Positions 34,949-47,179 of a stretch of 64,000 nt of DNA are shown here, one piece after another (within the stretch, counting starts at the first letter, position 1; each line of letters starts with the position of its first letter). The position numbers were made by a program, and so were the translations under genes. This DNA is from Accumulibacter sp. (GTDB lineage: Bacteria > Pseudomonadota > Gammaproteobacteria > Burkholderiales > Rhodocyclaceae): contig NZ_JAPUVI010000030.1 in NCBI RefSeq assembly GCF_029255285.1, forward strand, positions 1-64,000, written 5' to 3'. The notes below the pieces were generated by a model. That model saw nothing but the letters and a program-made list of their open reading frames with translations, ran no database searches and had not been told where the DNA came from.

Positions 34949-35464
34949 TCAGCTGCGGCGCCGACGCGTCGCCAAACCCAGTAGACCGAGGCCGACAAGC
35001 GCCAGCGATCCGGGTTCCGGCACCTGAATCTGGACGGTCTCGATTTCAACGATCCAGTTACCCGGGTCGATGTCGATGCGCAGCGTGTTCGCTCCCGGCA
35101 GCAGCTCGGCAAACACATCGAAGAACGAGTCCAGACTTTCGGTCGTTCCGACGCCAAGGCTCCCCGGTCCCGGCTGAATGTCGAAGCAGCAGTAGTTGTA
35201 CGTCTGGTGGGTCAGCACGCCGAGCAGGTTACCGTTCAGCCGCACCTCGTCGTTCTCGCTCAGGTCGACTCCCTCGGCCGTGATCCTCAGGCGCCCCGCG
35301 ACGCCGGCGGGCTTGGGGTTGAAGAAGGTGATCTCGACGGATTCGGGGTAAGGATCGCCTGCGCTGCTCTGCAGGATCTGATAGACGTCGAGGTTGATCA
35401 GAGCCGCTCCCGCCGAGAACGGCAGGCCGAGGAAAGCCAGGGTTGCCAAGACTTTCTTGATCAT
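34949..35464 (-). CDS. PEP-CTERM sorting domain protein 1
   Basis: The 171-residue secreted protein has a signal peptide (MIKKVLATLAFLGLPFSAGA) and a PEP-CTERM tail. The tail is VPEPGSLALVGLGLLGLATRRRRS: a PEP motif, one hydrophobic helix and an Arg cluster. Such proteins are cut by an exosortase and are linked to exopolysaccharide and floc formation. The middle is a beta-rich stretch (SVEITFFNPKPAGVAGRLRITAEG, NTLRIDIDPGNWIVEIETVQIQ) with a CC pair in YNYCCFDI. GGAGACAC precedes the ATG. A sigma-54-type promoter lies about 110 bp upstream. Confidence 0.9.
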   Translation of the reverse strand: MIKKVLATLAFLGLPFSAGAALINLDVYQILQSSAGDPYPESVEITFFNPKPAGVAGRLRITAEGVDLSENDEVRLNGNLLGVLTHQTYNYCCFDIQPGPGSLGVGTTESLDSFFDVFAELLPGANTLRIDIDPGNWIVEIETVQIQVPEPGSLALVGLGLLGLATRRRRS

Positions 35465-35573
35465 GTGTGTCTCCTTGCGTGGTGGTCGGTGGAAGAACGT
35501 GGAGAGCCAAGCGTCCGTCTGCGGGGCCTTCCCTTTCGCGCTACTTCACTTGCGGCTTGCGAAGAAAATCCGA

Positions 35574-35589
35574 GCAAAATTCGCACCGG
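35574..35589 (-). promoter_or_regulatory. Candidate sigma-54 (-24/-12) promoter of PEP-CTERM gene 1
   Basis: The minus strand reads CCGGTGCGAATTTTGC. GG and GC are separated by exactly 10 nt, and the -12 box TTGC is perfect against YTGGCACG-N4-TTGC (9 of 12 defined positions). It matches C-N-GG-N3-GAAT-N2-TGC, shared with the sites upstream of the two other PEP-CTERM genes. The predicted leader is about 100 nt. Confidence 0.65.
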
Positions 35590-35720
35590 AAATATTTTTT
35601 ACTTGGAATCCGAGAGTTGAATACATCTTGCCGGCGATCCGTAAAGTTTCCCGACATCGCTCGGAATGGCTATAGTTTTCTCGCCGCAGGAGTGGAGTTC
35701 CGTCGGTGTGGTCACCGAAG

Positions 35721-36572
35721 TCAGCTCCCCTCGCTTCGGGCACTCGGCCGCCGGCGTCGCCATGCCGTCAGGCTGCCAAGCAGGAGGCTCCCAGCCGCCA
35801 ACGCAAGACTCGACGGTTCGGGTACGGCACGCGTGGGTTCGGCATAGAGGAAATCGTCCATCACCACCATGTCGGTGATCTCGTCGGCGCGCACGCCATT
35901 GGACAGGATGGCATTGGCGCCCGAGGTGAGCCGCACCCGGCTGATCTTCTCGCCAGCTTTGGCCACGGCGCCGACGAAGCTCAAGCCCTGGTTGCCTCCG
36001 ACCAGAACGTCGCGCGCCAGGAGCAGCGTATCGGTCGCGTCGAAGAACTCGATCCTGGTCACGCGAGGCAGTTCGACATCCACGAAAATGGCGCCGAAGG
36101 CGCTCGTCGTGGCGGCGATGCCTGTCCCCGGGACAAAGAACGTGACGTCGGTGATATTGCTTTCGACGGCCGTAAACAGCCGCTGCGCGCTGAAAGTCTG
36201 CAAGTCGCCCGGGAATCCGAACAGCGTCGGGGTGGGCAGGTCGGCGTTGGCGCTCACCAGGAAACCGCTTCCCGGCGTGCTGAAGACCGCTCCACGCGGC
36301 GAGTTGACGTTGAAGAAATTGCCGGGCAGGGGGTTGGGATCGGCCCGTGGGTCAGGCACGCCATCCCAGTTGATCTCGCGGCGAAGGCCGCCGAAAGACC
36401 CGTTTGCTCCAGCAACGCTTCCTCCCCCGACGGCGGTACGGAAGGCGTCGCGCGCGGGGCTGATCGCCGCCGGGTTGGCGCCGGCCGCCTCGAAGGTGAT
36501 CAGGCTGGCCCCCGCTGCCGGGGCCAGCAGCAAGGCGGCGACCGCTGCCGCCGATGTGTAGATTGACTTCAT
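35721..36572 (-). CDS. PEP-CTERM sorting domain protein 2
   Basis: The 283-residue secreted protein has a signal peptide (MKSIYTSAAAVAALLLAPAAGA) and a beta-rich body (LITFEAAGANPAAISPARDAFRTAVGGG, VSANADLPTPTLFGFPGDLQTF, RVTRIEFFDATDTLLLAR). This resembles the all-beta domains common in PEP-CTERM proteins. The tail VPEPSSLALAAGSLLLGSLTAWRRRRPS is a full PEP-helix-Arg sorting signal. The start is ATG at 36572, after GGAGAAGGGAC. The sequence upstream of it lacks a leader. The product is probably exported for exosortase processing. No exosortase gene is in the window. Confidence 0.9.
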   Translation of the reverse strand: MKSIYTSAAAVAALLLAPAAGASLITFEAAGANPAAISPARDAFRTAVGGGSVAGANGSFGGLRREINWDGVPDPRADPNPLPGNFFNVNSPRGAVFSTPGSGFLVSANADLPTPTLFGFPGDLQTFSAQRLFTAVESNITDVTFFVPGTGIAATTSAFGAIFVDVELPRVTRIEFFDATDTLLLARDVLVGGNQGLSFVGAVAKAGEKISRVRLTSGANAILSNGVRADEITDMVVMDDFLYAEPTRAVPEPSSLALAAGSLLLGSLTAWRRRRPSARSEGS

Positions 36573-36647
36573 GTCCCTTCTCCTCGCTCTGAAAACGCCT
36601 TGGCGATACGACCATCGGCTCGCGTTGAATGCGAACAATAAGCATAA

Positions 36648-36663
36648 GCAAGATTCTGGCCTG
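36648..36663 (-). promoter_or_regulatory. Candidate sigma-54 (-24/-12) promoter of PEP-CTERM gene 2
   Basis: The minus strand reads CAGGCCAGAATCTTGC with GG-N10-GC spacing and a perfect TTGC followed by TTA. It shares the pattern C-N-GG-N3-GAAT-N2-TGC with the other two PEP-CTERM promoters. The predicted leader is about 65 nt to the ATG at 36572. Confidence 0.6.
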
Positions 36664-36832
36664 AAAACATTTATTGCGGTATAACAGGTAGTTAGGAAAT
36701 GTATTTTGCCTTGCTTGCCGATTGGTGTAAAGAATTTCGACAAGTAGGATTGACGCTGGGGCCGCGATCGGCCGGCGGAGGCAAGGGGTAGGACGTCGGT
36801 GGCGATCGTGCCCCGGTGTCAACGCGCCGAGT

Positions 36833-36861
36833 TTGCGTCGCGTCGCGCGACCGACGATAAT
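36833..36861 (+). promoter_or_regulatory. Candidate sigma-70 promoter for the SDR gene
   Basis: TTGCGT (36833-36838) and GATAAT (36856-36861) are separated by 17 bp, and the -10 matches 5 of 6. It lies 47 bp upstream of the ATG at 36909. Confidence 0.5.
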
Positions 36862-36908
36862 CCGTTTCGGAGCCGGCTGTGCGGGCCGGCCGAACAGGGA
36901 GGTGGTGG

Positions 36909-37661
36909 ATGGATTTGTGGGCGTGCCCGGCGGTGGTCACCGGCGCAGCTTCGGGCCTTGGTGCGGAAACGGCGCGCTATCTGGCCGAAGCCGGCGCCAA
37001 GGTGACGGTGATCGACATCGATGGCGACGGTGTGCAGAAGATCGCCGAGGAGATCGGCGGCCTGGCGATTCCCTGCGATGTCGCCGATTCACGGTCGGCC
37101 GAGAATGCCGTGGCCATGGCGCGTGCCGCACATGGTGCGGCACGCGTTCTCGTGCATTGCGTCGGCCGTGGCCACTCCGAGCCGATCATCAGTGGCGACG
37201 GTCCGATGCCGCTCGACGACTTCCGCCAGCTCGTCGAAGTCAACCTGATCTCGACCTTCAACATGATGCGGCTCGCCGCCGCCGACATGGCGCAACTGCC
37301 GCCGCTGGCCAATGGCGAGCGCGGCGTCATCCTGTCGACCGCGTCGGTTTCCGCCTACGAAGGGCAGAGCGGTGAAGCGGCCTATGCGGCATCCAAAGGC
37401 GGTGTCGTCAGCATGATCCTGCCGGCGGCGCGCGAACTCGGTGCGCTGGGAATTCGCGTCGTCGGTATCGCGCCGGGGCTGTTCGGTACGCAGACGCTGT
37501 TCAACATGGAGAAGAACCTGGATTCCCGGCTCGCTCGCCAGATCCCGTTTCCACACCGCTTTGGCGATGCCGCCGAGTTCGCCATGCTGGTCCTCCACGT
37601 CCTCAAGAACATCATGCTCAACGGCACCGTGTTGCGCCTGGACGGCGGCTACCACCGTTAA
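36909..37661 (+). CDS. SDR-family dehydrogenase, 3-hydroxyacyl-CoA dehydrogenase (HSD10)-like
   Basis: This 250-residue classical short-chain dehydrogenase has NAD-binding TGAASGLG near residues 9-16. An acidic residue after beta-2 (TVIDIDGD) favours NAD over NADP. The catalytic Ser/Tyr/Lys are in STASVSAYEGQSGEAAYAASKGG near residues 143-165. The C-terminus (IPFPHRFGDAAEFAMLVLHVLKNIMLNGTVLRLDGG) resembles type-2 3-hydroxyacyl-CoA dehydrogenases. Fatty-acid or branched-chain acyl-CoA oxidation is therefore the likeliest role, by inference. GGGAGGTGG lies just upstream of the ATG at 36909. A PEP-synthase regulator follows 32 bp downstream. Confidence 0.82.
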   Translation: MDLWACPAVVTGAASGLGAETARYLAEAGAKVTVIDIDGDGVQKIAEEIGGLAIPCDVADSRSAENAVAMARAAHGAARVLVHCVGRGHSEPIISGDGPMPLDDFRQLVEVNLISTFNMMRLAAADMAQLPPLANGERGVILSTASVSAYEGQSGEAAYAASKGGVVSMILPAARELGALGIRVVGIAPGLFGTQTLFNMEKNLDSRLARQIPFPHRFGDAAEFAMLVLHVLKNIMLNGTVLRLDGGYHR

Positions 37662-37693
37662 GCGGCGGGACGAACGAACGCTGGGTCGCCATC

Positions 37694-38515
37694 GTGGGCA
37701 AGCCCCTTGTTCTCCACCTCGTTTCGCACGCTTCGGGCGAGCTGGTCGAAATGCTGGCGCGTAACGCCGTCGCGCAGCTCGCCGGTGTCGAGATCGAGCG
37801 ACGCTTGTGGAAGATGGTCCGCCGCCTGGGCCAGATACCGGGGATTCTGGCGGCGGTGGCCAGCAAACCGGGCTATGTCCTGCACAGCATCAGTCACATG
37901 GACATTCGCGAGACGCTGGAAGAGGGCTGCCGCCGTCTGGCCGTACCTTGCGACTTCGTCCTCGAACCTCTGGTCGGCCGCCTGGCCGCGCACGTCGGCA
38001 CGGCCGTACAGTTGCATACCAGCTCCGGCGACGCCTTCGACGAAGACTACTATCGCCGCGTCGAGGCCATGAAGTACGCCCTCGCTCACGACGATGGAAT
38101 GGCAAGCGACGATCTCGAGGGTGCCGACGTGATTCTCGTCGGCGTGTCGCGAGCCACCAAGACGCCGACCTGCATGTATCTCGCATCGCGCGGCATCAAG
38201 GCGGCCAACGTGCCGCTGGTGCCGGGCGCGGCGCTGCCGGGCGGACTGATGAACGCACGCAGTCCGCTCATCATCGGACTGGTCGTCGATCCGGCCCGCC
38301 TGGCAACCGTCCGCTCGGCCCGCCTGCACTCCCTGAACCAGGACGGCGGCAGCGAGTACGCCGACGTCGAAGCCTTGCGCAAGGAGGTACTCGAGGCACG
38401 CCGCCTGTTCGTCATGCGCGCCTGGCCGGTCATCGACGTCACGCATCGTTCGATCGAACAGGCGGCTTCGATGATCATCGCGAAGCTCAAGGCGCGCGCC
38501 GGCGATCGTTCCTAA
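37694..38515 (+). CDS. PEP synthase regulatory protein (PSRP/DUF299 kinase-pyrophosphorylase)
   Basis: The 273-residue protein belongs to the bifunctional ADP-dependent kinase/pyrophosphorylase family, which switches PEP synthase or pyruvate phosphate dikinase off and on. The P-loop-like motif GVSRATKTPTCMYLA starts near residue 149, preceded by the conserved YALAHDDG near 131. ANVPLVPG and the C-terminal WPVIDVTHRSIEQAASMI complete the signature. Start is a GTG at 37694. The target ppsA gene usually sits beside it but is not in this window. Instead it follows an SDR gene by 32 bp. Confidence 0.88.
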   Translation: MGKPLVLHLVSHASGELVEMLARNAVAQLAGVEIERRLWKMVRRLGQIPGILAAVASKPGYVLHSISHMDIRETLEEGCRRLAVPCDFVLEPLVGRLAAHVGTAVQLHTSSGDAFDEDYYRRVEAMKYALAHDDGMASDDLEGADVILVGVSRATKTPTCMYLASRGIKAANVPLVPGAALPGGLMNARSPLIIGLVVDPARLATVRSARLHSLNQDGGSEYADVEALRKEVLEARRLFVMRAWPVIDVTHRSIEQAASMIIAKLKARAGDRS

Positions 38516-38538
38516 CTCGCCGAGCGTCCGGCCGACCG

Positions 38539-39414
38539 TCAATCGACGCTGGCGAGAAGGCTTTTCGCCTCTGTGTGGAGTTGGTAAAGGTCGGTGTCCA
38601 CAAGTTCGAGAAGGCGCAGGCACGAGCCGCCGAGCTTTTGCCATTCCTCGGTTCGGCTGCCACCGGTGAGCTGCTGGACGAGGTGTTCCGCCGTTTGGCT
38701 GATGGCCACCAGATGGCGGCTGGCGACGGGTAGGCCAGAGTCCGTGAGGTCGATTGCCGAATGGTCATGGTGGTGTCGGATGGCCAGACAGATTTCCTCA
38801 GGCAACCACCAGTCCCGCGCCAGCAGGCAGCCGATCATGGCGTGGTCGGTCGGAAAATCCTGTTGCTCGACGGTCGTGAAAGCGCGCTCGCAGTCGGCGT
38901 TGGCCCGCTCAAGGGTTTGCCGGTAGGTCGGGAAACGGAGCAACAGCATGGCGATGCCGGTGTCCCGAAACAGGCCGTAGGTGTAGGCGTCATTGGCTTG
39001 CACGCGACGGTGCGGGGTTTTCTGGGCGAGCCAGCCGGACAGTACGGCAATCTGAGCCGAAGCGCCCCAGAAACGCTCGAGCCGGTTGTTGACCGGAAAG
39101 GCCCGACGCAGGCTGAGGGTGGCGATGGCGCGGCTGGCGACGTCCAGGCCGAGCATCAAGAGCGCGTCGTGCACCGAGCGAGCGCGCTTGCGAAAACCGA
39201 AGTAAGCGGAATTCACGCTCTGGATCAGTCCGGCCGCCAGGCCGACATCGACGCTGATCAACTGACCGATGCGTTGCAGATTCGGCCGGTCGCTGTCCAT
39301 TTCGGCCTTGATGCGGTCGATGATGAGCGGGCGCGGGGGAACGTCCAGATCCTTGAGCATCCGTTCCAGGAAGAGATCGACGTCGGGTACGGCGTTCGAG
39401 GTTTTGTCTTTCAT
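38539..39414 (-). CDS. HDOD domain protein
   Basis: The 291-residue protein has an HDOD domain over most of its length (about 15-225). Recognisable segments are the helical start PPRPLIIDRIKAEMDSDRPNLQRIGQLISVDVGLAAGLIQSVNSAYFG and, later, DTGIAMLLLRFP and EICLAIRHHHD. HDOD domains are HD-like but lack the HD catalytic pair and act as protein-protein signalling modules. The ATG overlaps the stop of the upstream GGDEF-EAL gene as TAATG, which indicates coupled translation and a shared pathway, probably in c-di-GMP-linked control. Confidence 0.85.
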   Translation of the reverse strand: MKDKTSNAVPDVDLFLERMLKDLDVPPRPLIIDRIKAEMDSDRPNLQRIGQLISVDVGLAAGLIQSVNSAYFGFRKRARSVHDALLMLGLDVASRAIATLSLRRAFPVNNRLERFWGASAQIAVLSGWLAQKTPHRRVQANDAYTYGLFRDTGIAMLLLRFPTYRQTLERANADCERAFTTVEQQDFPTDHAMIGCLLARDWWLPEEICLAIRHHHDHSAIDLTDSGLPVASRHLVAISQTAEHLVQQLTGGSRTEEWQKLGGSCLRLLELVDTDLYQLHTEAKSLLASVD

Positions 39415-40775
39415 TACTGCAGCCTTTGAGCCATCCACGCCATCAAGGCGGGTTCGGGCATGGGTCGTGCGTGAAAGAAGCCCTGGGTCGCGTCGACGGC
39501 CGCTTCGGCGAGCGCGGCCAGTTGCGCGGGGTTTTCGACCCCTTCGGCAACGACGGTCATGCCCAGCTCGGAGCCCAGGCTGGTCATCGCCTTGACGACA
39601 GCGAAGGAGCGTCGGTCGGTCGGCAGAACGCTGGCGAAGGAACGGTCCAGCTTGAGCTTGTTGGCCGAGAGATCCTTCAGGGTCGACAGACAGGAAAAGC
39701 CGGTACCGAAGTCGTCGATCGCCAGTCCGACGCCAGCGGCGCGTGCCGCCCCCAAATTCGCCTGTACGGGGGGTGCGAGATCCATGAAAAGCGACTCCGT
39801 GAGTTCGAGCTCAAGCAAGTCCGGCGGTAAATTGGCGCACACCAGCGCGGCGTGCAGAGCCTGAGTGAACTTGGGCGAAATCAGTTGCGCTCGTGAAACA
39901 TTGATCGCCATCTTGGTTGGGGTTCCCTGTTCGCGCAGGCGGGCGGCGCAACGCGCGCCCTGAAACAGGCTCCACTCGCCGAGGCGGACGATCAGCCCCG
40001 TTTTCTCGGCCACCGGGATGAAGCGCGCCGGAGTGATCTGATGCCCGTCGACGGCGCAGCGCATCAGCGCCTCGACTGCCTCGACCCCGCCGCTGGGGCG
40101 GACAATGGGCTGGAAGTGGAGGCACAGCTCACCATTTTCCAACGCACGGTGCAGGGCGTTTTCGATGGCCAGTTCCTCGCGCGCCAGTTCGACACCGAGG
40201 CGCCTGGTCAGCAACTCGTCGCCCGACGTCACCAGGCGGTTGCGGCCACGGCGCTTGGCCTCGCTCATCGCGCGGTCAGCCCGTTCGAGCCAGACCACCG
40301 GCTCCTCGTCACACAGCTTGACGGCAAGGCCGATGCTGACCGACGGATGGATCACGAGTTCGTCGACGTGCAAGGGCCGCCGTATCTCGAGCAACAGCCG
40401 GCGCGCCAAGTCGTTGGCCGACGCTTGGTCGAAGCCGGGGGCGAGCACGACGAACTCGTCGTCACCCATGCGCGACAAGCGGCACTGGACACCGGCGAGC
40501 GCGCGGATACGTTCGGCGATGTGGGCAATGACGCGGTCTCCGGCGCTATGCCCGAACGATTCATTGACCTGCCGAAAACGGTCGATATCCAGCCAGATGG
40601 CGCTCAGACCTGTGGCCACGGTGGCGGCCTCGGCCGCCAGAGCGATGGCTGCCTGCAGACAGGCCCGACGCGTAAGGAAACCAGTAATCGGGTCGAGCAG
40701 GGGATTCGCGGAGGGAGTCGTGGCGGCACGCCGCTGGCGTGTCGCTGCTGATGGACGGTCGGTCCGGTCGGTCAT
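39414..40775 (-). CDS. GGDEF-EAL protein, probable c-di-GMP phosphodiesterase
   Basis: The roughly 453-residue cytoplasmic protein has a GGDEF domain (about 25-185) with LSAIWLDIDRFRQVNESFGHSAGD and an altered active site, RMGDDEF, where the second Gly is Asp. The EAL domain (about 200-450) keeps VEALMR, LELTESLFMD, AIDDFGTGFSCLSTLKDLSANKLKLDRSF, VVAEGVE and TQGFFHARPM. EAL phosphodiesterase activity is therefore likely, whereas the cyclase is probably weak, absent or GTP-sensing only. No sensor or TM domain. The ATG at 40775 follows AGGAAAGC; upstream in-frame codons extend to 40898 but are Arg/Lys-rich. It is coupled to the HDOD gene. Confidence 0.87.
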   Translation of the reverse strand: MTDRTDRPSAATRQRRAATTPSANPLLDPITGFLTRRACLQAAIALAAEAATVATGLSAIWLDIDRFRQVNESFGHSAGDRVIAHIAERIRALAGVQCRLSRMGDDEFVVLAPGFDQASANDLARRLLLEIRRPLHVDELVIHPSVSIGLAVKLCDEEPVVWLERADRAMSEAKRRGRNRLVTSGDELLTRRLGVELAREELAIENALHRALENGELCLHFQPIVRPSGGVEAVEALMRCAVDGHQITPARFIPVAEKTGLIVRLGEWSLFQGARCAARLREQGTPTKMAINVSRAQLISPKFTQALHAALVCANLPPDLLELELTESLFMDLAPPVQANLGAARAAGVGLAIDDFGTGFSCLSTLKDLSANKLKLDRSFASVLPTDRRSFAVVKAMTSLGSELGMTVVAEGVENPAQLAALAEAAVDATQGFFHARPMPEPALMAWMAQRLQ

Positions 40776-40930
40776 CGCTTGCTTTCCTGACGCAGAGGGG
40801 GCGGTGGTGCTCGCTGGCTTGGTCGAGTCGCCGAGCTTACGCAACCGGGTGGCAAGACGCTTGACCCGGCGCGTCTTCCGCATGACCATTCGTGCCATTG
40901 GGAGATTCAGCGCATCTGGGAGCCGCCGCC

Positions 40931-41941
40931 ATGCCTAAACTGGAAAGTACCCTGGCCAGCCTATGGCTGATCGTGTTGCGGTTGGTTGAACTCCACGGTA
41001 TCGATCCTCAACGCTTCCTGCACGAACTCGGGATCCGACCCGAGACGCTGCGCGATGTCCACGCGCGCCTGCCAAGTCGGCTGGCCGATGTCGCTTTTGC
41101 CAAAGCCGCGGCGCAGATTCCGGACCCGGCGTTCGGCTTGCGCGCCGGCGAGTGCTGGCACCCCTCCAATCTCGGGACGATGGGTTACGCTTGGTTGTCC
41201 AGCCGAACCCTGCACACCGGGCTCAAGCGGCTTGAGCGTTTTTCGTGCGTGCTGGGCAATCGCGCGACCTATCGCTGTGTCGACGAAGCGGCCGGTATAC
41301 GCTTCCTATTCGACCACGGCCGCAAGGACGCGAAGGTCGGCTATCCGATGGCCGATTTCACACTGTCTGTTTTGATCGACATGTGCCGGACCAATTTCGG
41401 TAGCAAGCTGAACGCCGCCGCTCTGCGCCTGCGTCGCCCCCAACCCGACGACCCACGGGCCTGGTTGGAACTGTTCGGCTGCGACGTGCAGTTCGGCGCC
41501 GCCGAGGACAGCCTTCTGCTCGACCGCGAAACCGCTGACATGCCGCTGCCTTCGGCCAACATTCCATTGGCCAACACCTTCGATCGCATCCTGACCGAGC
41601 AATTGGCCTGCTTTTTCGACGACGACGTCGTCAGTCGCTGCAAGGCCCATCTGCTGCGGCAACTCACCTCGGGACCGCCGTCGGCGCAAGAAACGGCTAA
41701 AGATCTGGGTATGAGCCAGCGCACTCTGCAGCGCAGACTGGGCGAACTTGGCCTGACCTATCAACGCTTGTGTGACGAAACGCGTCACGAATTGGCACGT
41801 CGCTACCTCGACGACAGTCGCAAGTCGGTTACCGAGGTGACCTTTCTGCTCGGTTTTTCCGAGCAAAGTGCCTTCACCCGTGCCTTCAGGCGCTGGAGCG
41901 GCATGTCGCCGAGCGCTTATCGCTACGGTCCGGCCGCTTAG
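40931..41941 (+). CDS. AraC-family transcriptional regulator with arabinose-binding-like N-domain
   Basis: The 336-residue regulator has an N-terminal domain (about 15-210) of the type seen in OruR/ArgR-like AraC proteins (LPSRLADVAFAKAAAQIPDPAFGLRAGECWHPSNLGTMGYA). The C-terminal double helix-turn-helix is QETAKDLGMSQRTLQRRLGE near 255-275 and VTEVTFLLGFSEQSAFTRAFRRWSGMSPSAYR near 300-331. The ATG at 40931 begins the domain. It is divergent from the GGDEF-EAL/HDOD pair with a short gap, so it may control that pair or itself. The effector is unknown. Confidence 0.88.
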   Translation: MPKLESTLASLWLIVLRLVELHGIDPQRFLHELGIRPETLRDVHARLPSRLADVAFAKAAAQIPDPAFGLRAGECWHPSNLGTMGYAWLSSRTLHTGLKRLERFSCVLGNRATYRCVDEAAGIRFLFDHGRKDAKVGYPMADFTLSVLIDMCRTNFGSKLNAAALRLRRPQPDDPRAWLELFGCDVQFGAAEDSLLLDRETADMPLPSANIPLANTFDRILTEQLACFFDDDVVSRCKAHLLRQLTSGPPSAQETAKDLGMSQRTLQRRLGELGLTYQRLCDETRHELARRYLDDSRKSVTEVTFLLGFSEQSAFTRAFRRWSGMSPSAYRYGPAA

Positions 41942-41976
41942 AAGCGGTGTCGGCAGCAAGCTCGGCCGCGCCCGTA

Positions 41977-41982
41977 TATAAT
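41977..41982 (+). promoter_or_regulatory. Candidate -10 element of prfB
   Basis: A perfect TATAAT lies 34 bp upstream of the prfB ATG in an otherwise GC-rich gap. The -35 region is not recognisable. Confidence 0.5.
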
Positions 41983-42015
41983 TGTCAGTTTTCCCCTTAG
42001 AAGATCAGAGGCATT

Positions 42016-43120
42016 ATGGAAGCCGAACAGCTCAACATCCTAGACAGCCGCCTGGCCGACCTTGGCCTGCGCGCTTCCGAACTGCGGAGGTATCTTTGAC
42101 TACGATCAGAAGGCCGATCAGCTAAAGACCGTCGAGCGCGAACTCGCCGATCCCAAGGTCTGGGAAGACGCCGAGCGCGCGCAGGATCTTGGTCGCGAAA
42201 AGCGATCGCTGGAAACCGTCGTGCTGACGCTGGACCGCGTCGGCGACAGTCTGCGCGATGCCGGCGAACTGTTCGCCATGGCGCGCGAGGAGGACGATGA
42301 CGACACGCTGCACGCGCTGGTGTCGGATATCGACGGTATCGAGAAAGAGCTAGCCGGTCTGGAGTTCCGCCGCATGTTCAACAATCCGGCCGATCCGCTC
42401 AATTGTTTTCTCGACATCCAGGCCGGCGCCGGGGGTACCGAGGCACAGGACTGGGCGGCGATGCTCTTGCGCATGTACCTGCGCTACGCCGAGCGCAAGG
42501 GCTACGCGGTCGAAGTGCTCGAGGAGTCGGAAGGCGAGGTCGCCGGCATCAAGACGGCGAGCCTGAAGATTTCCGGCGATTACGCTTACGGCATGCTGCG
42601 ATCGGAAACCGGCATTCACCGCCTGGTGCGCAAGTCGCCGTTCGATTCCAATGCCCGAAGACACACCAGTTTCTGCTCGGTTTCCGCCTATCCCGAGATC
42701 GACGACTCGTTCGAAGTGGAGATCAACCCGGCCGAACTGCGTATCGACACCTATCGCGCTTCCGGCGCGGGCGGTCAGCACATCAACAAGACCGATTCGG
42801 CGGTACGCATCACGCACTTGCCGACCAATATCGTCGTTCAATGTCAGAACGACCGCTCGCAGCACCGCAACCGTGCCGAGGCGATGGCGATGCTCAAGTC
42901 GCGCATCTACGAAGCCGAGATGCGCAAGCGCCAGGCCGAACAGCAGAAGCTCGAAGATGCCAAATCCGACATCGGATGGGGTCACCAGATCCGCTCCTAC
43001 GTTCTCGACCAGTCACGAATCAAGGATTTGCGCACCAACGTCGAAGTCGGCAACACCCAGGGTGTGCTCGACGGCGACCTCGACCAGTTCATCGAAGCGA
43101 GCCTGAAACAAGGCGTCTGA
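42016..43120 (+). CDS. prfB: Peptide chain release factor 2 (programmed +1 frameshift)
   Basis: RF2 terminates translation at UGA and UAA. The gene is read as 42016-42096 joined to 42098-43120. The first frame encodes 27 residues ending RRYL and meets an in-frame TGA at 42097-42099. A +1 shift at CTT-TGA-C then continues as [20 protein letters not shown]. The peptidyl-hydrolysis motif GGQ ([19 protein letters not shown]) and the stop-recognition SPF ([15 protein letters not shown]) are both present. The full product is about 367 residues, the usual length. Translation from a later ATG would lose the family N-terminus. lysS follows 70 bp downstream, a standard linkage. Confidence 0.97.
42085..42100 (+). 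promoter_or_regulatory. RF2 autoregulatory frameshift site
   Basis: GGAGG-TAT-CTT-TGA-C places a Shine-Dalgarno-like GGAGG 3 nt before the slippery CTT, followed by the UGA that RF2 itself reads and by C, the classic weak stop context. When RF2 is scarce the ribosome slips +1 and makes more RF2. The spacer sequence GGTATCTTTGAC is the same as in the well-studied enterobacterial site. Confidence 0.95.
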
Positions 43121-43190
43121 GGTCGGCGACGTCGCGCCGACCGGACCCTGAAACTCCCGCACCCCAACCGATCACGAGATACCGCTAACC

Positions 43191-44705
43191 ATGTCTCCAG
43201 ACGACACTCAGGTCAAGGGCTTGCTGCCGCAAGACGAGAATCACATCATCGCCGAACGTCGCGCCAAACTGGCCGAATGGCGGCAGACCGGTCAAGCCTA
43301 TCCGAACGATTTCCGGCGGGAGAATACCGCCGGCAAGATCAACGAGGTCTACGATGCGCGAAGCCGAGACGAACTCGCGGCTTCGCCGGTCGAGGTCAAG
43401 GTGGCGGGCCGTATCCTGCTCAAGCGCGTGATGGGTAAGGCGGCGTTCATCAGCATTCAGGACCTCTCCGGGCGCCTGCAGTTGTATGTCAGCCGCGACC
43501 AGCTCGGCGAGCAAGACTACGTCGCCTTCAAGCGCTGGGACATCGGCGACATCGTCGGCGCCGTCGGTACGCTGTTTCGCACCAGAACGGGCGAACTGAC
43601 CGTCGATTGCTCGGCCATCCGCCTCCTCACGAAGTCGCTGCGACCGCTGCCGGAAAAGTTCCACGGCTTGACCGACCAGGAACAGAAGTACCGGATGCGT
43701 TACGTCGACCTGATCACCAACGAGCAATCGCGCCTTGCTTTCGCCATTCGCAGCCGTATCGTGCAGTCGATCCGCAACTTCATGGTGCGCCACGGTTTCC
43801 TCGAAGTCGAAACGCCGATGATGCACAGCATCCCCGGCGGTGCCGCGGCGCGGCCGTTCAGGACACATCACAATGCGCTGGAGATGGAACTCTTTCTGCG
43901 CATTGCCCCGGAATTGCACCTCAAGCGCCTGGTCGTCGGCGGCTTCGAGAAGGTCTTCGAAATCAACCGCAACTTCCGCAACGAAGGCTTGAGCCCGCGC
44001 CACAACCCCGAGTTCACCATGATGGAGTTCTACGAGGCGTACTCCGAGTATGGCCAGTTGATGGACTTTACCGAAGGGTTGTTGCGCCATAGCGCGCGCG
44101 AAGCGCTGGGGGGCGAGGTCTTCGCGTATCAGGGGCGGCCGCTGGACTTCGCCAAACCTTTCGCGCGTCTGACGATCAGCCAAGCGATTCATCGGTCGCA
44201 CCCCGGTTTCAGCCTGACACAACTCGCCGATGCCGCCTGGTTGCGCGAAAAGCTCGCCGCACTCAAGGTCGAGGCGGGATCCGCGGCCGGGCTGGGGGCT
44301 TTGCAGCTGGCGCTCTTCGAAGCGACGACCGAGGTCGACCTGTGGAATCCGACCTTCATCGTCGATTACCCGGCCGAAGTCAGCCCGCTGGCGCGCCGCA
44401 GCGACCGCAACCCGGACGTCGCCGAGCGCTTCGAGCTGTTCATCGCCGGTCGCGAGATCGCCAACGGCTTCTCCGAACTGAACGACCCGGAAGACCAGGC
44501 GGCGCGCTTCCTCGAACAGGCGAAAGCCAAGGACGCCGGCGACGAGGAGGCCATGTACTACGACGCCGACTACATCCGGGCACTCGAATACGGGCTGCCG
44601 CCGACCGGCGGCTGCGGTATCGGTATCGACCGCCTGGTGATGCTGCTTACCGATGCGGCGAACATTCGGGACGTCATTCTTTTTCCGCAGATGCGGCCGG
44701 AGTAG
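43191..44705 (+). CDS. lysS: Lysyl-tRNA synthetase, class II
   Basis: The 504-residue enzyme charges tRNA-Lys. The N-terminal OB-fold anticodon-binding domain (about 65-150) contains [29 protein letters not shown]. The class II core follows with motif 1 ([16 protein letters not shown]), motif 2 ([29 protein letters not shown] near 258-286) and motif 3 ([13 protein letters not shown] near 479-491). Full length. It follows prfB, as in many proteobacteria. Confidence 0.96.
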
Positions 44706-44719
44706 GCCGCGACCGGGCG

Positions 44720-45937
44720 ATGAACCGCCGGGCGATCGTCATCGGCGCCGGCCTGGCGGGCAGCAGCGTCGCCGAACGGCTGGCGGCGCGTGGCTGGTCG
44801 ATCGAGCTGATCGAGCGTGCCGAAGCGGCAGGCCAAGGCGCTTCCGGAAATCTGGCCGGGGTTCTGCGGCCGCTGCCTTCGCTCGACGACAACCGTCTGG
44901 CGCGTCTGACGCGCGCCGGCTTCCTTTACGCCCGTCAACATTTCGCTGCGCTGGAGGCCGCCGGTCTGGCGCTGCGCTGGCGGCCGACCGGCGTGCTGCA
45001 TCTGGCGCGCGACGAGGCGCATGCCGCCACGCAGCGACGTATTGTCGAGGCAAGGCAGCCGAGTGCCGACGAACTGCGTTTCGTGGACCGGCGGCAGGCC
45101 GCGCAACTCGCCGGCTGGCCGGTAAGCGGCGGCGGCTGGTGGTTCGCCGGGGGCGGCTGGGTTGCTCCGGCCTCGCTGTGCCGCGTCAATCTGGCACGCC
45201 ACGCCGATCGCATCCGGCCGCACTACGGGCGCCAGGTGGCCTGTATCGACCGGCCGGCAGATCTCTGGCGAGCGTACGACAGCGCCGGCCAGATGATCGC
45301 CGAAGCACCGATTCTGGTTCTCGCCAATGCCGGTGACGCGAAACGCTTCGCCCTCGCCGAGCACTTGCCCTTGCGCGTGGCGCGTGGTCAGGTTTCGCAT
45401 CTGCCGGCGCCCGCTGGCTCGCCGCCCGACGTAGTCGTTTGCCGATCGGGCTACGTCACCCCGGCGATCGACGGGGTGCGCTGCGTTGGCGCGACGTTTT
45501 CGGTCGACGACGGAGAACTCGGCCTGCGCCAGGCCGATACGGCCGAAAATCTGGCCAGACTCGATTTCATCCTGCCCGGCTATGGCGACGGACTGTCCGC
45601 CTCGATGCTCGGTGGCCGGGTCGGTTTCCGCCCGCTGGTGCCGGACCGTCTGCCAATGATTGGCGCCATCGGCGACGCTGCGGCGATCGACCCCGAGCGC
45701 CGCCCCGCGCGGCTGGCCGAAGTGCCGCGCGTTCCGGGGCTCTATCTGAACAACGGATTCGGTGCGCGCGGTATCGTCTGGTCTGCGCTGGCCGGCGAGC
45801 TGCTGGCTTGTCTGATTACCGGCGCGGCGCCGCCGCTCGCCGGCGATCTCGTAGGCGCGGTCGATCCGGGTCGCTTTCTGCTGCGCGGCCGTCAGCAACG
45901 GCTACGCAACCTTGCCGTCCAGCGTCCGCCGGGCTAG
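44720..45937 (+). CDS. MnmC-type FAD-dependent tRNA-modifying oxidase, stand-alone
   Basis: The 405-residue flavoprotein matches the C-terminal (FAD, MnmC1) half of bifunctional MnmC, which converts cmnm5s2U34 to nm5s2U34 in tRNA. It has the dinucleotide motif AIVIGAGLAGSSVAERLAARGWSIELIE at residues 5-32. GQGASGNLAGVLRPLPS follows, with VGFRPLVPDRLPMIG near 300 and the family ending LYLNNGFGARGIVWSALAGELLACLITG...DPGRFLLR. The methyltransferase half (MnmD) is absent. The start is 15 nt after the lysS stop. General DAO-family oxidases are the alternative, but the C-terminal signature favours MnmC. Confidence 0.8.
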   Translation: MNRRAIVIGAGLAGSSVAERLAARGWSIELIERAEAAGQGASGNLAGVLRPLPSLDDNRLARLTRAGFLYARQHFAALEAAGLALRWRPTGVLHLARDEAHAATQRRIVEARQPSADELRFVDRRQAAQLAGWPVSGGGWWFAGGGWVAPASLCRVNLARHADRIRPHYGRQVACIDRPADLWRAYDSAGQMIAEAPILVLANAGDAKRFALAEHLPLRVARGQVSHLPAPAGSPPDVVVCRSGYVTPAIDGVRCVGATFSVDDGELGLRQADTAENLARLDFILPGYGDGLSASMLGGRVGFRPLVPDRLPMIGAIGDAAAIDPERRPARLAEVPRVPGLYLNNGFGARGIVWSALAGELLACLITGAAPPLAGDLVGAVDPGRFLLRGRQQRLRNLAVQRPPG

Positions 45938-46066
45938 CCGAATTAGCCGAATTAGCCGGACCGGTGTAGCGGCCTGGTGCGGATCACGCGGCCTGCCGCC
46001 CATCTGTGGCCGCGCGCCCCACCCGGAAAGGCGGGACGGCGATTCACCGGTCGGAGGCAGGCTCTT

Positions 46067-46909
46067 TCAGGCTGGCCGACGGCGGCGTGCGGCGGCGAGA
46101 CCGGTCAGTCCGATGGCCAGCAATGCGAGCGAGGCAGGCTCGGGGATTCGCGGGTCGGGCTCGAAATTCGCACGCAGGCCCATGACGCCGTTGATCTCAT
46201 TGTCACCGTCCGAAATCAGGGCACCTGGCCCGCCATTGATCACCGAGGCGTAACGGAACGTGGCGCTGGTACCGGTGCCGACGGCATATACGAAACCGTC
46301 CCAGACGACCGAAGTGTCGCTGTAGAGTCCTTCCAGCCAGACACGTTCGGTCACTGCCAGCGTCCAGGTGATCAGGTCATTGGACAGGTAGACGGTGGAT
46401 TCGATGGCTTCCTGGGGTAGCGGACCATGGTCGATGGTGTTGAAAATGGCTGCCTTGGTGGCCTGGAATCCGAGATCCCAGACCGAATTGCCGATCGTAG
46501 CATCGGTCTGAATCCAGTGCTGGTCGATCCCATTGCCGCCAGCGGCGGCGCCTACGCCGCTATACGTATAGTTGTAACTCCCCTGGTTGCCACCGTCGTT
46601 GACGCCCGGCTGATCGAGCGATGTGCCGTAGCTTCCGAAGGAGGGGTTGCTGACGACGTTGACGCCGTTGTACCGGATCATCTGCGCCGCGGCGAAGCCG
46701 GCCGCATTGAAGTTGCCGTCGTCGAGCAAATTGTTGGCGACTACCAGCGCACGGTTCGCCGGCGTGTCGGCGCCGTAATAGAGACTGGCGAAAGTGCCGA
46801 CGGTGGCGCTCTGCCAGCTACGGGCGTCGTTGGGATCAGTGAGCAGCGCAGCGTGAGCGGCACCGACGGTAAGCAGCGATGCGGAGAGGAAAACGATTGG
46901 TTTGAGCAT
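46067..46909 (-). CDS. PEP-CTERM sorting domain protein 3
   Basis: The 280-residue secreted protein has a signal peptide (MLKPIVFLSASLLTVGAAHA) and a beta-rich body. The tail is IPEPASLALLAIGLTGLAAARRRRPA, a complete PEP-CTERM signal. Body segments include YNYTYSGVGAAAGGNGIDQHWIQTDATIGNSVWDLGF, LSNDLITWTLAVTERVWLEGLYSDTSVVWDGFVYAV and FRYASVINGG. This SxD/xxW arrangement is common in large PEP-CTERM paralog families of floc- and biofilm-forming bacteria. GGAGGTTTC precedes the ATG. A sigma-54-type promoter lies about 105 bp upstream. Its exact role is unknown. Confidence 0.9.
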   Translation of the reverse strand: MLKPIVFLSASLLTVGAAHAALLTDPNDARSWQSATVGTFASLYYGADTPANRALVVANNLLDDGNFNAAGFAAAQMIRYNGVNVVSNPSFGSYGTSLDQPGVNDGGNQGSYNYTYSGVGAAAGGNGIDQHWIQTDATIGNSVWDLGFQATKAAIFNTIDHGPLPQEAIESTVYLSNDLITWTLAVTERVWLEGLYSDTSVVWDGFVYAVGTGTSATFRYASVINGGPGALISDGDNEINGVMGLRANFEPDPRIPEPASLALLAIGLTGLAAARRRRPA

Positions 46910-47011
46910 GAAACCTCCGTGGCGAAAGAGAGTCGGGACGGGAAGAGCTTGACGGTCGCCGGCCAGGTACTATCGGTGCGAAGACTGGTCACGTGCGATG
47001 GCTTGCGGCAA

Positions 47012-47027
47012 GCACAATTCATACCAG
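47012..47027 (-). promoter_or_regulatory. Candidate sigma-54 (-24/-12) promoter of PEP-CTERM gene 3
   Basis: The minus strand reads CTGGTATGAATTGTGC with GG-N10-GC spacing. It matches 9 of 12 defined positions of YTGGCACG-N4-TTGC and shares C-N-GG-N3-GAAT-N2-TGC with the other two PEP-CTERM promoters. The predicted leader is about 90 nt. Confidence 0.65.
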
Positions 47028-47179
47028 ACTTTTTCGTCGATTGCAGAGTCGCTGTTATATCGGACAGTTGGCTTTTCTGACGGGAATCACTGGAACAGCG
47101 TCTCCACTCTCATGGCAATCCCTGTAAAGAATATCGACAGCGCGCTGCTGGCCTCGGCTTAGTTAGGTACGGCGACCTT

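Follow-up and report, generated by a model that had tools for sequence, protein, structure and literature searches.

Three PEP-CTERM promoters of an Accumulibacter genome: comparison of relatives suggests control sites whole helix turns apart around a likely DNA bend

A 17-nt motif ending in TTTACA, followed by a spacer and a sigma-54 box, was reported before 99 of 167 proteobacterial PEP-CTERM genes, with a spacer averaging 62.8 nt (standard deviation 10.6, range 32–92) and a mean of 71 nt to the start (Haft 2006; PMC1569441). This motif pair co-occurs with PrsK, PrsR and PrsT, and its first motif is a predicted PrsR enhancer (PMC1569441). In Aquincola tertiaricarbonis, pepA is RpoN1-dependent; its mapped start lies behind TGGCAC / CTGCTT, an enhancer being predicted upstream, and insertion mutants of prsT and prsK are floc-deficient, the prsK mutant not being complemented (passages of PMC9850573). 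More generally, sigma-54 polymerase must await an AAA+ activator, and looping is often assisted by integration host factor (IHF), nifH/NifA and Pu/XylR being cited as promoters of the enhancer-IHF-sigma-54 kind (PMC7057263). Here, we analyse the promoters of three PEP-CTERM genes in a 64,000-nt stretch of an Accumulibacter sp. draft genome (assembly GCF_029255285.1, contig NZ_JAPUVI010000030.1, positions 1 to 64,000), called the window below. PEP-CTERM proteins of Candidatus Accumulibacter are overexpressed in granular relative to floccular cultures, according to a passage citing earlier work (PMC12019908).

Each of the three genes very probably has its own promoter of the PEP-CTERM regulon, at which PrsR would act from an enhancer, IHF would bend the DNA and sigma-54 polymerase would occupy the -24/-12 box. 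What the sequence shows is an enhancer motif, a spacer site and a -24/-12 box at quantised distances, together with genes for the regulators; which protein binds which site, and the need for IHF, we infer from these. A first-pass annotation of the same DNA had pointed out the boxes. Because motif 1 is present upstream of each box, that finding is half of the known two-part regulatory site; the enhancer half, which the annotation missed, lies upstream of all three genes and carries much of the specificity. The window promoters thus resemble the site of Haft 2006, with motif 1, a spacer, a GG-N10-GC box and a PEP-CTERM gene downstream, and are additional cases of the regulon described in 2006. 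The TTTACA-ending motif 1 is exact upstream of genes 2 and 3 and has one mismatch (TTTACG) at gene 1. A site matching the IHF consensus with at most one mismatch lies between enhancer and box in all three promoters (Table 1).

The pattern shared by the three boxes, CNGGNNNGAATNNTGC, has exactly three matches in the window (35574–35589, 36648–36663 and 47012–47027), all on the minus strand, against a mean of 0.21 in shuffled windows (0 of 100 shuffles reached three), a low expectation that is post hoc because the pattern was derived from these same sites. An independent two-box model (enhancer, spacer, box), trained on 180 of 206 sites after removal of the loci of this genome and of sites off the spacing comb described below, found exactly three strong modules when both strands of the window were scanned (scores of 41.2, 41.0 and 30.5), the next best reaching 10.0. 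The matches and the modules together bear out the claim of three sites of a common pattern on the minus strand upstream of PEP-CTERM genes. All three window proteins score above the PF07589 cut-off, and the boxes end 109, 75 and 102 bp upstream of the A of the ATG of genes 1, 2 and 3. The start of gene 2 was taken as the ATG at 36572, which is preceded by GAGGAG and followed by an N-terminus that resembles a signal peptide by eye; the longer TTG-started frame (35721–36743) would swallow the promoter.

Table 1. PEP-CTERM genes of the window and the predicted elements of their promoters (coordinates on the window)
Feature	Coordinates	Strand	Sequence	Remarks
PEP-CTERM gene 1	34949..35464	-		171 aa, VPEP near C-terminus; PF07589 35.0 bits (cut-off 20.7)
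Gene 1 sigma-54 -24/-12 box	35573..35588	-	CGGTGCGAATTTTGCT	
Gene 1 IHF-like box	35607..35619	-	CAACTCTCGGATT	1 mismatch to YAANNNNYTGATW; 20 nt after enhancer motif
Gene 1 predicted PrsR enhancer (motif 1), degenerate	35640..35656	-	TGTCGGGAAACTTTACG	spacer to GG = 52
PEP-CTERM gene 2	35721..36572	-		283 aa from ATG 36572; PF07589 22.0 bits
Gene 2 sigma-54 box	36647..36662	-	AGGCCAGAATCTTGCT	
Gene 2 IHF-like box	36682..36694	-	TAACTACCTGTTA	1 mismatch; 31 nt after enhancer motif
Gene 2 predicted PrsR enhancer motif	36726..36742	-	TGTCGAAATTCTTTACA	spacer to GG = 64
PEP-CTERM gene 3	46067..46909	-		280 aa; PF07589 26.1 bits
Gene 3 sigma-54 box	47011..47026	-	TGGTATGAATTGTGCT	
Gene 3 IHF-like box	47058..47070	-	CAACTGTCCGATA	1 mismatch; 52 nt after enhancer motif
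Gene 3 predicted PrsR enhancer motif	47123..47139	-	TGTCGATATTCTTTACA	spacer to GG = 97

The rest of the genome argues in the same direction. The 4.19-Mb draft, whose RecJ is closest among named organisms to that of Candidatus Accumulibacter (86% identity), holds 24 PF07589 hits, 23 of them above the cut-off, and in the fetched loci a module scoring at least 30 precedes 17 of the 24 PEP-CTERM genes. An eighteenth, before gene L016, is an exact motif pair at C106:48195-48290, outside the fetched locus and unscored by the model. The only PrsR over the cut-off (739 bits) is clustered with PrsK (870), PrsT (942) and an EpsB2 glycosyltransferase (518); there is one RpoN match (465 bits), and IhfA is over its cut-off at 149 bits (the IHF gene search covered the IhfA family). 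The proposal that these scattered genes form a sigma-54 regulon is thus supported by the modules before 18 of the 24 PF07589 hits, the PrsK-PrsR-PrsT cluster and the single rpoN match, and the link of PEP-CTERM systems to RpoN and PrsK/PrsR, which the annotation took as established, is published (PMC1569441; PMC9850573).

Modules are also found at C95:1190, C89:83406 and C73:19874 of this genome. At L051 1647-1904 and L059 1646-1903 (the contig ends of G000 C94 and C112), two others with a spacer of 64 stand before small proteins that are nearly identical, start like signal peptides (MN[K/T]KLT[R/Q]IALAAALA...) and are both cut off by the contig ends; these may represent a repeated gene at assembly breaks. 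At L047 1629-2573 (G000 C86), a module with a spacer of 65 and a 1-mismatch IHF-like box precedes a 314-aa protein that, by eye, carries a hydrophobic stretch and a basic tail close to its C-terminus, possibly a regulon member of another kind. The family search placed no PEP-CTERM or other family above its cut-off in the targets of L047, L051 and L059.

To place these promoters among those of relatives, 150 genomes of the order, this one included, were searched for TGTCG-N6-TTTACA, a free spacer and GG-N9-TGCW. There were 11 matches with spacers of 13–43 bp (10 genomes), 147 at 44–74 bp (44 genomes) and 60 at 75–105 bp (31 genomes), against 1, 1 and 3 for the reversed-pattern controls (5 in total versus 218 real). 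The 11 scattered matches at 13–43 bp were taken as background. Matches are enhancer-box pairs, the enhancer G120:C7:149116 being counted with two boxes among the 207 at 44–105 bp. In a survey of the same 150 genomes that scored up to 10 candidates per genome, PrsR was over the cut-off in 37, and 34 of these have the motif pair at 44–74 bp, as compared with 10 of the 113 genomes without PrsR over the cut-off (Fisher P 2.6e-21, counting only PrsR over the cut-off). This association repeats the published co-occurrence with more genomes. Among the three PrsR genomes without a 44–74 bp pair, G039 has a match at 75–105 bp and the other two are 87% and 78% complete. A fuller look at the ten motif-pair genomes found no PrsR over the cut-off, and four of them (G052, G082, G092 and G128) hold probable PrsR pieces as judged by score per position. 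In G092, PrsR appears at C6:79473-80800 as two adjoining matches (positions 1–272 and 272–445), which may reflect a frame break or an assembly error, and that genome keeps one motif pair.

The spacer, whose length and content were free in the search, is not of arbitrary length. The 207 pairs, which come from 47 genomes and are counted as motif pairs whatever gene lies downstream, fall on teeth at about 53, 64, 75, 86 and 97 bp, some 11 bp apart: 198 of the 207 lie within 3 bp of a tooth and 190 within 2 bp (windows that cover 35 and 25 of the 62 possible values). The best period is 11.2 bp with R 0.72, a value that 0 of 2000 uniform draws equalled, and removing the main tooth leaves R at 0.64, again with 0 of 2000 draws as high. 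The window spacers of 52, 64 and 97 place three different teeth within one short region, and the last, slightly beyond the published range of 32–92, is yet on a populated tooth. Outside the order but within the class, none of the 10 matches (7 genomes) is more than 3 bp from a tooth and 8 are no more than 2 bp away, a weak test (P 0.0025).

A third element lies inside the spacer. Where the spacer is 64 bp long (47 sites), the 13-base stretch starting 31 nt after the enhancer approximates YAANNNNTTGWTW and is followed by AT-rich sequence up to -24. The published 13-bp IHF consensus is WATCARNNNNTTR (PMC3897727, PMC7962754), and YAANNNNTTGWTW is close to its reverse complement. Scanning with this consensus, without a trained matrix, and with mononucleotide shuffles only (50 rounds), we found at most one mismatch in 88 of 206 spacers, as against a mean of 19.8 in shuffled spacers (no round above 27); reversed spacers gave 19 and upstream flanks 5. 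Exact matches numbered 17 versus 1.2 shuffled, and matches with at most two mismatches 167 versus 109. The opposite orientation is also enriched (60 versus 19.2 shuffled, 15 reversed and 12 flanks). The W base of the consensus, which lies near the centre of the bend, stands about 20–21 or 31–33 bp upstream of GG where the consensus reads forward and about 20 or 31 bp upstream where it is reversed, and an in-phase site with at most one mismatch is present at 111 of 206 sites versus 8.2 shuffled (maximum 14), the in-phase windows of 18–23 and 29–34 bp having been set after the scan results were seen. The arm from the enhancer to the W base measures about 32, 43, 54 or 65 bp; taken with the distances to GG, this suggests that the two arms change in length by whole turns. 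The boxes of the window follow suit: the gene 1 offset is that of most spacers of the n = 53 class, and those of genes 2 and 3 are the offsets of the n = 64 and n = 97 classes.

Several observations, besides the late choice of the in-phase windows, count against this interpretation of the three promoters and their relatives. The enhancer motif of gene 1 is degenerate, as is the -24 GG in two of the modules counted in this genome (L009 and L020), and 6 of the 24 PEP-CTERM genes lack a module (L003, L011, L012, which scores 9.4, L017, L018 and L023). Six genomes have the motif pair with neither PrsR nor a probable piece of it, and outside the class 10 of 14 matches lie within 3 bp of a tooth and 4 are off the comb. 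At the 95 of 206 sites that lack an in-phase IHF-like site of at most one mismatch, the spacers still keep to the comb (R 0.60), and the 35 without even a 2-mismatch site give R 0.40. For this reason the comb does not depend strictly on a recognisable IHF site. This last point bears on an alternative that we regard as unlikely, namely that these are PrsR/sigma-54 promoters whose spacer element is not an IHF site but an AT-rich tract, intrinsically curved or UP-like, or a site for HU or another bending protein. The AT-richness from the spacer box to -24 fits such an element, as do the spacers on the comb that lack a good IHF match, and the shuffled controls preserved base composition only and not dinucleotides. 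However, matches to WATCARNNNNTTR far exceed those in both shuffled and reversed spacers, and the W base takes the same position in both orientations, which a plain AT tract would not give.

The comb itself could have been left behind by tandem duplications or by shared descent instead of reflecting a requirement for one face of the helix, a reading that we consider very unlikely. Sites from one genome or family are related to some extent, and self-identity of at least 10 of 11 at a lag of 10–12 is found in 4 of 196 spacers versus 1.1 expected from shuffles. This duplication-like excess touches at most a few spacers, so tandem duplication is not favoured as the source of the comb. When a single site is drawn from each of 26 families, the comb persists, with a mean R of 0.65 against a 99.9th percentile of 0.48 under the null, and when 80 RecJ-anchored loci were scanned with a model that has no spacing prior, five additional modules turned up, with spacers of 53, 63, 63, 64 and 86, all five on teeth.

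Two further features of the spacing class were observed. A second enhancer motif occurs within 200 bp upstream on the same strand at 34 of 193 on-comb sites versus 1 of 193 shuffled (L196, L206 and L210 are examples); 33 of the distances are 98–197 bp and one is 57 bp, with weak phasing (R 0.40 for the 33 distances, calculated without a null). In genus g9 (G005 C10, G055 C4, G100 C243 and G140 C202), same-strand module pairs with spacers of 51–53 bp start about 200–490 bases apart, which suggests tandem promoters or a small gene between them.

The GAAT core inside the box, which the first-pass annotation had suggested as an extra signature, deserves hardly any credence as a recognition feature of the regulon. 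It is present in all three window promoters, in 5 of the 18 modules of this genome (three of them the window's) and in L318, a second relative of gene 2; the gene 2 orthologue in L314 (84% identity over 253 aa), by contrast, has GGAT. Among 196 on-comb sites, GAAT is found 10 times versus 9.3 expected from independent column frequencies, and GATT is equally frequent (10). GAAT is thus merely a common combination, because the preferred letters are G/A, then A, A/T and T. The G of GAAT is part of the canonical -24 element, TGGCACG. The genome-wide matches also speak against a signature: of the 16 to NGGNNNGAATNNTGCW, 5 stand before PEP-CTERM genes, 10 fall within open frames of 90 codons or more on the same strand and one does not; the backward control gives 5. 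At the other end of the box, the TGC at -12 is followed by T in about 95% of the 47 sites with a spacer of 64, and the position after that is T in about 68%, in a logo inflated at the positions fixed by the search pattern. Sigma-54 boxes in general read TTGCW; here the preference for T after TGC is stronger than this, even though either A or T could match the first of these positions.

Finally, almost no weight can be given to the idea that the three -24/-12-like sites arose by chance and that sigma-70 promoters drive the genes: GG-N10-GC is short, and the generic sigma-54 consensus, uninformative alone, has 92 loose matches in the window, below the 111 expected by chance, but enhancer and box, taken as a couple, score about 20 units higher than anything else in the window and are set at preferred spacings.

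A model consistent with these data for the three PEP-CTERM promoters begins with the membrane kinase PrsK, which would phosphorylate PrsR. PrsR would bind the 17-nt enhancer motif as an imperfect TGT-N11-ACA dyad, IHF would bend the AT-rich spacer, and the bend would bring the AAA+ ring of PrsR onto RNA polymerase with RpoN at the -24/-12 box, where ATP hydrolysis would open the promoter. Spacers of 52, 64 and 97 bp may occur because PrsR would keep facing the polymerase only if both arms span whole helical turns. The comparison of relatives suggests, from the arrangement of their motifs, control sites whole helix turns apart around a likely DNA bend. Going beyond this, we put forward tentatively, as a possibility rather than an expectation, a code in helical turns: the arms of the IHF bend (about 32, 43, 54 or 65 bp on one side and about 20 or 31 bp on the other) would lengthen only by whole turns, and the choice of tooth would grade the output of each surface protein. 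If true, the regulon would be a natural library for testing how loop geometry affects sigma-54 activation. With this geometry, what had been a motif pair of loose spacing becomes a sharp model that can be tested, IHF is predicted to be the regulator still missing from the control of PEP-CTERM proteins, and searches for the regulon can be made more specific.

The comb and the IHF-like element go beyond the published description and were not found in the open-access literature searched, in which PEP-CTERM together with IHF did not turn up either, and titles and abstract openings announce no phased spacing at PEP-CTERM promoters. At nifH with NifA and at Pu with XylR, the IHF site reportedly lies between the activator site and the -24/-12 box, and the bend is said to help the activator reach the polymerase. 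Section 7 of Haft 2006 gives two motifs and the mean, standard deviation and range of the spacer, with no helical comb or IHF-like third element in that section (PMC1569441). The pepA gene of Aquincola tertiaricarbonis is a single PEP-CTERM promoter that shares the -24/-12 box and a predicted enhancer with those of the window (PMC9850573). In Desulfovibrio, orp has an IHF site between the activator site and the -24/-12 box, as predicted for the window promoters, and there too the bend assists the activator in reaching polymerase (PMC3897727). However, orp, nifH and Pu are single promoters studied individually, whereas the PEP-CTERM regulon offers 207 natural pairs from 47 genomes that share a common comb.

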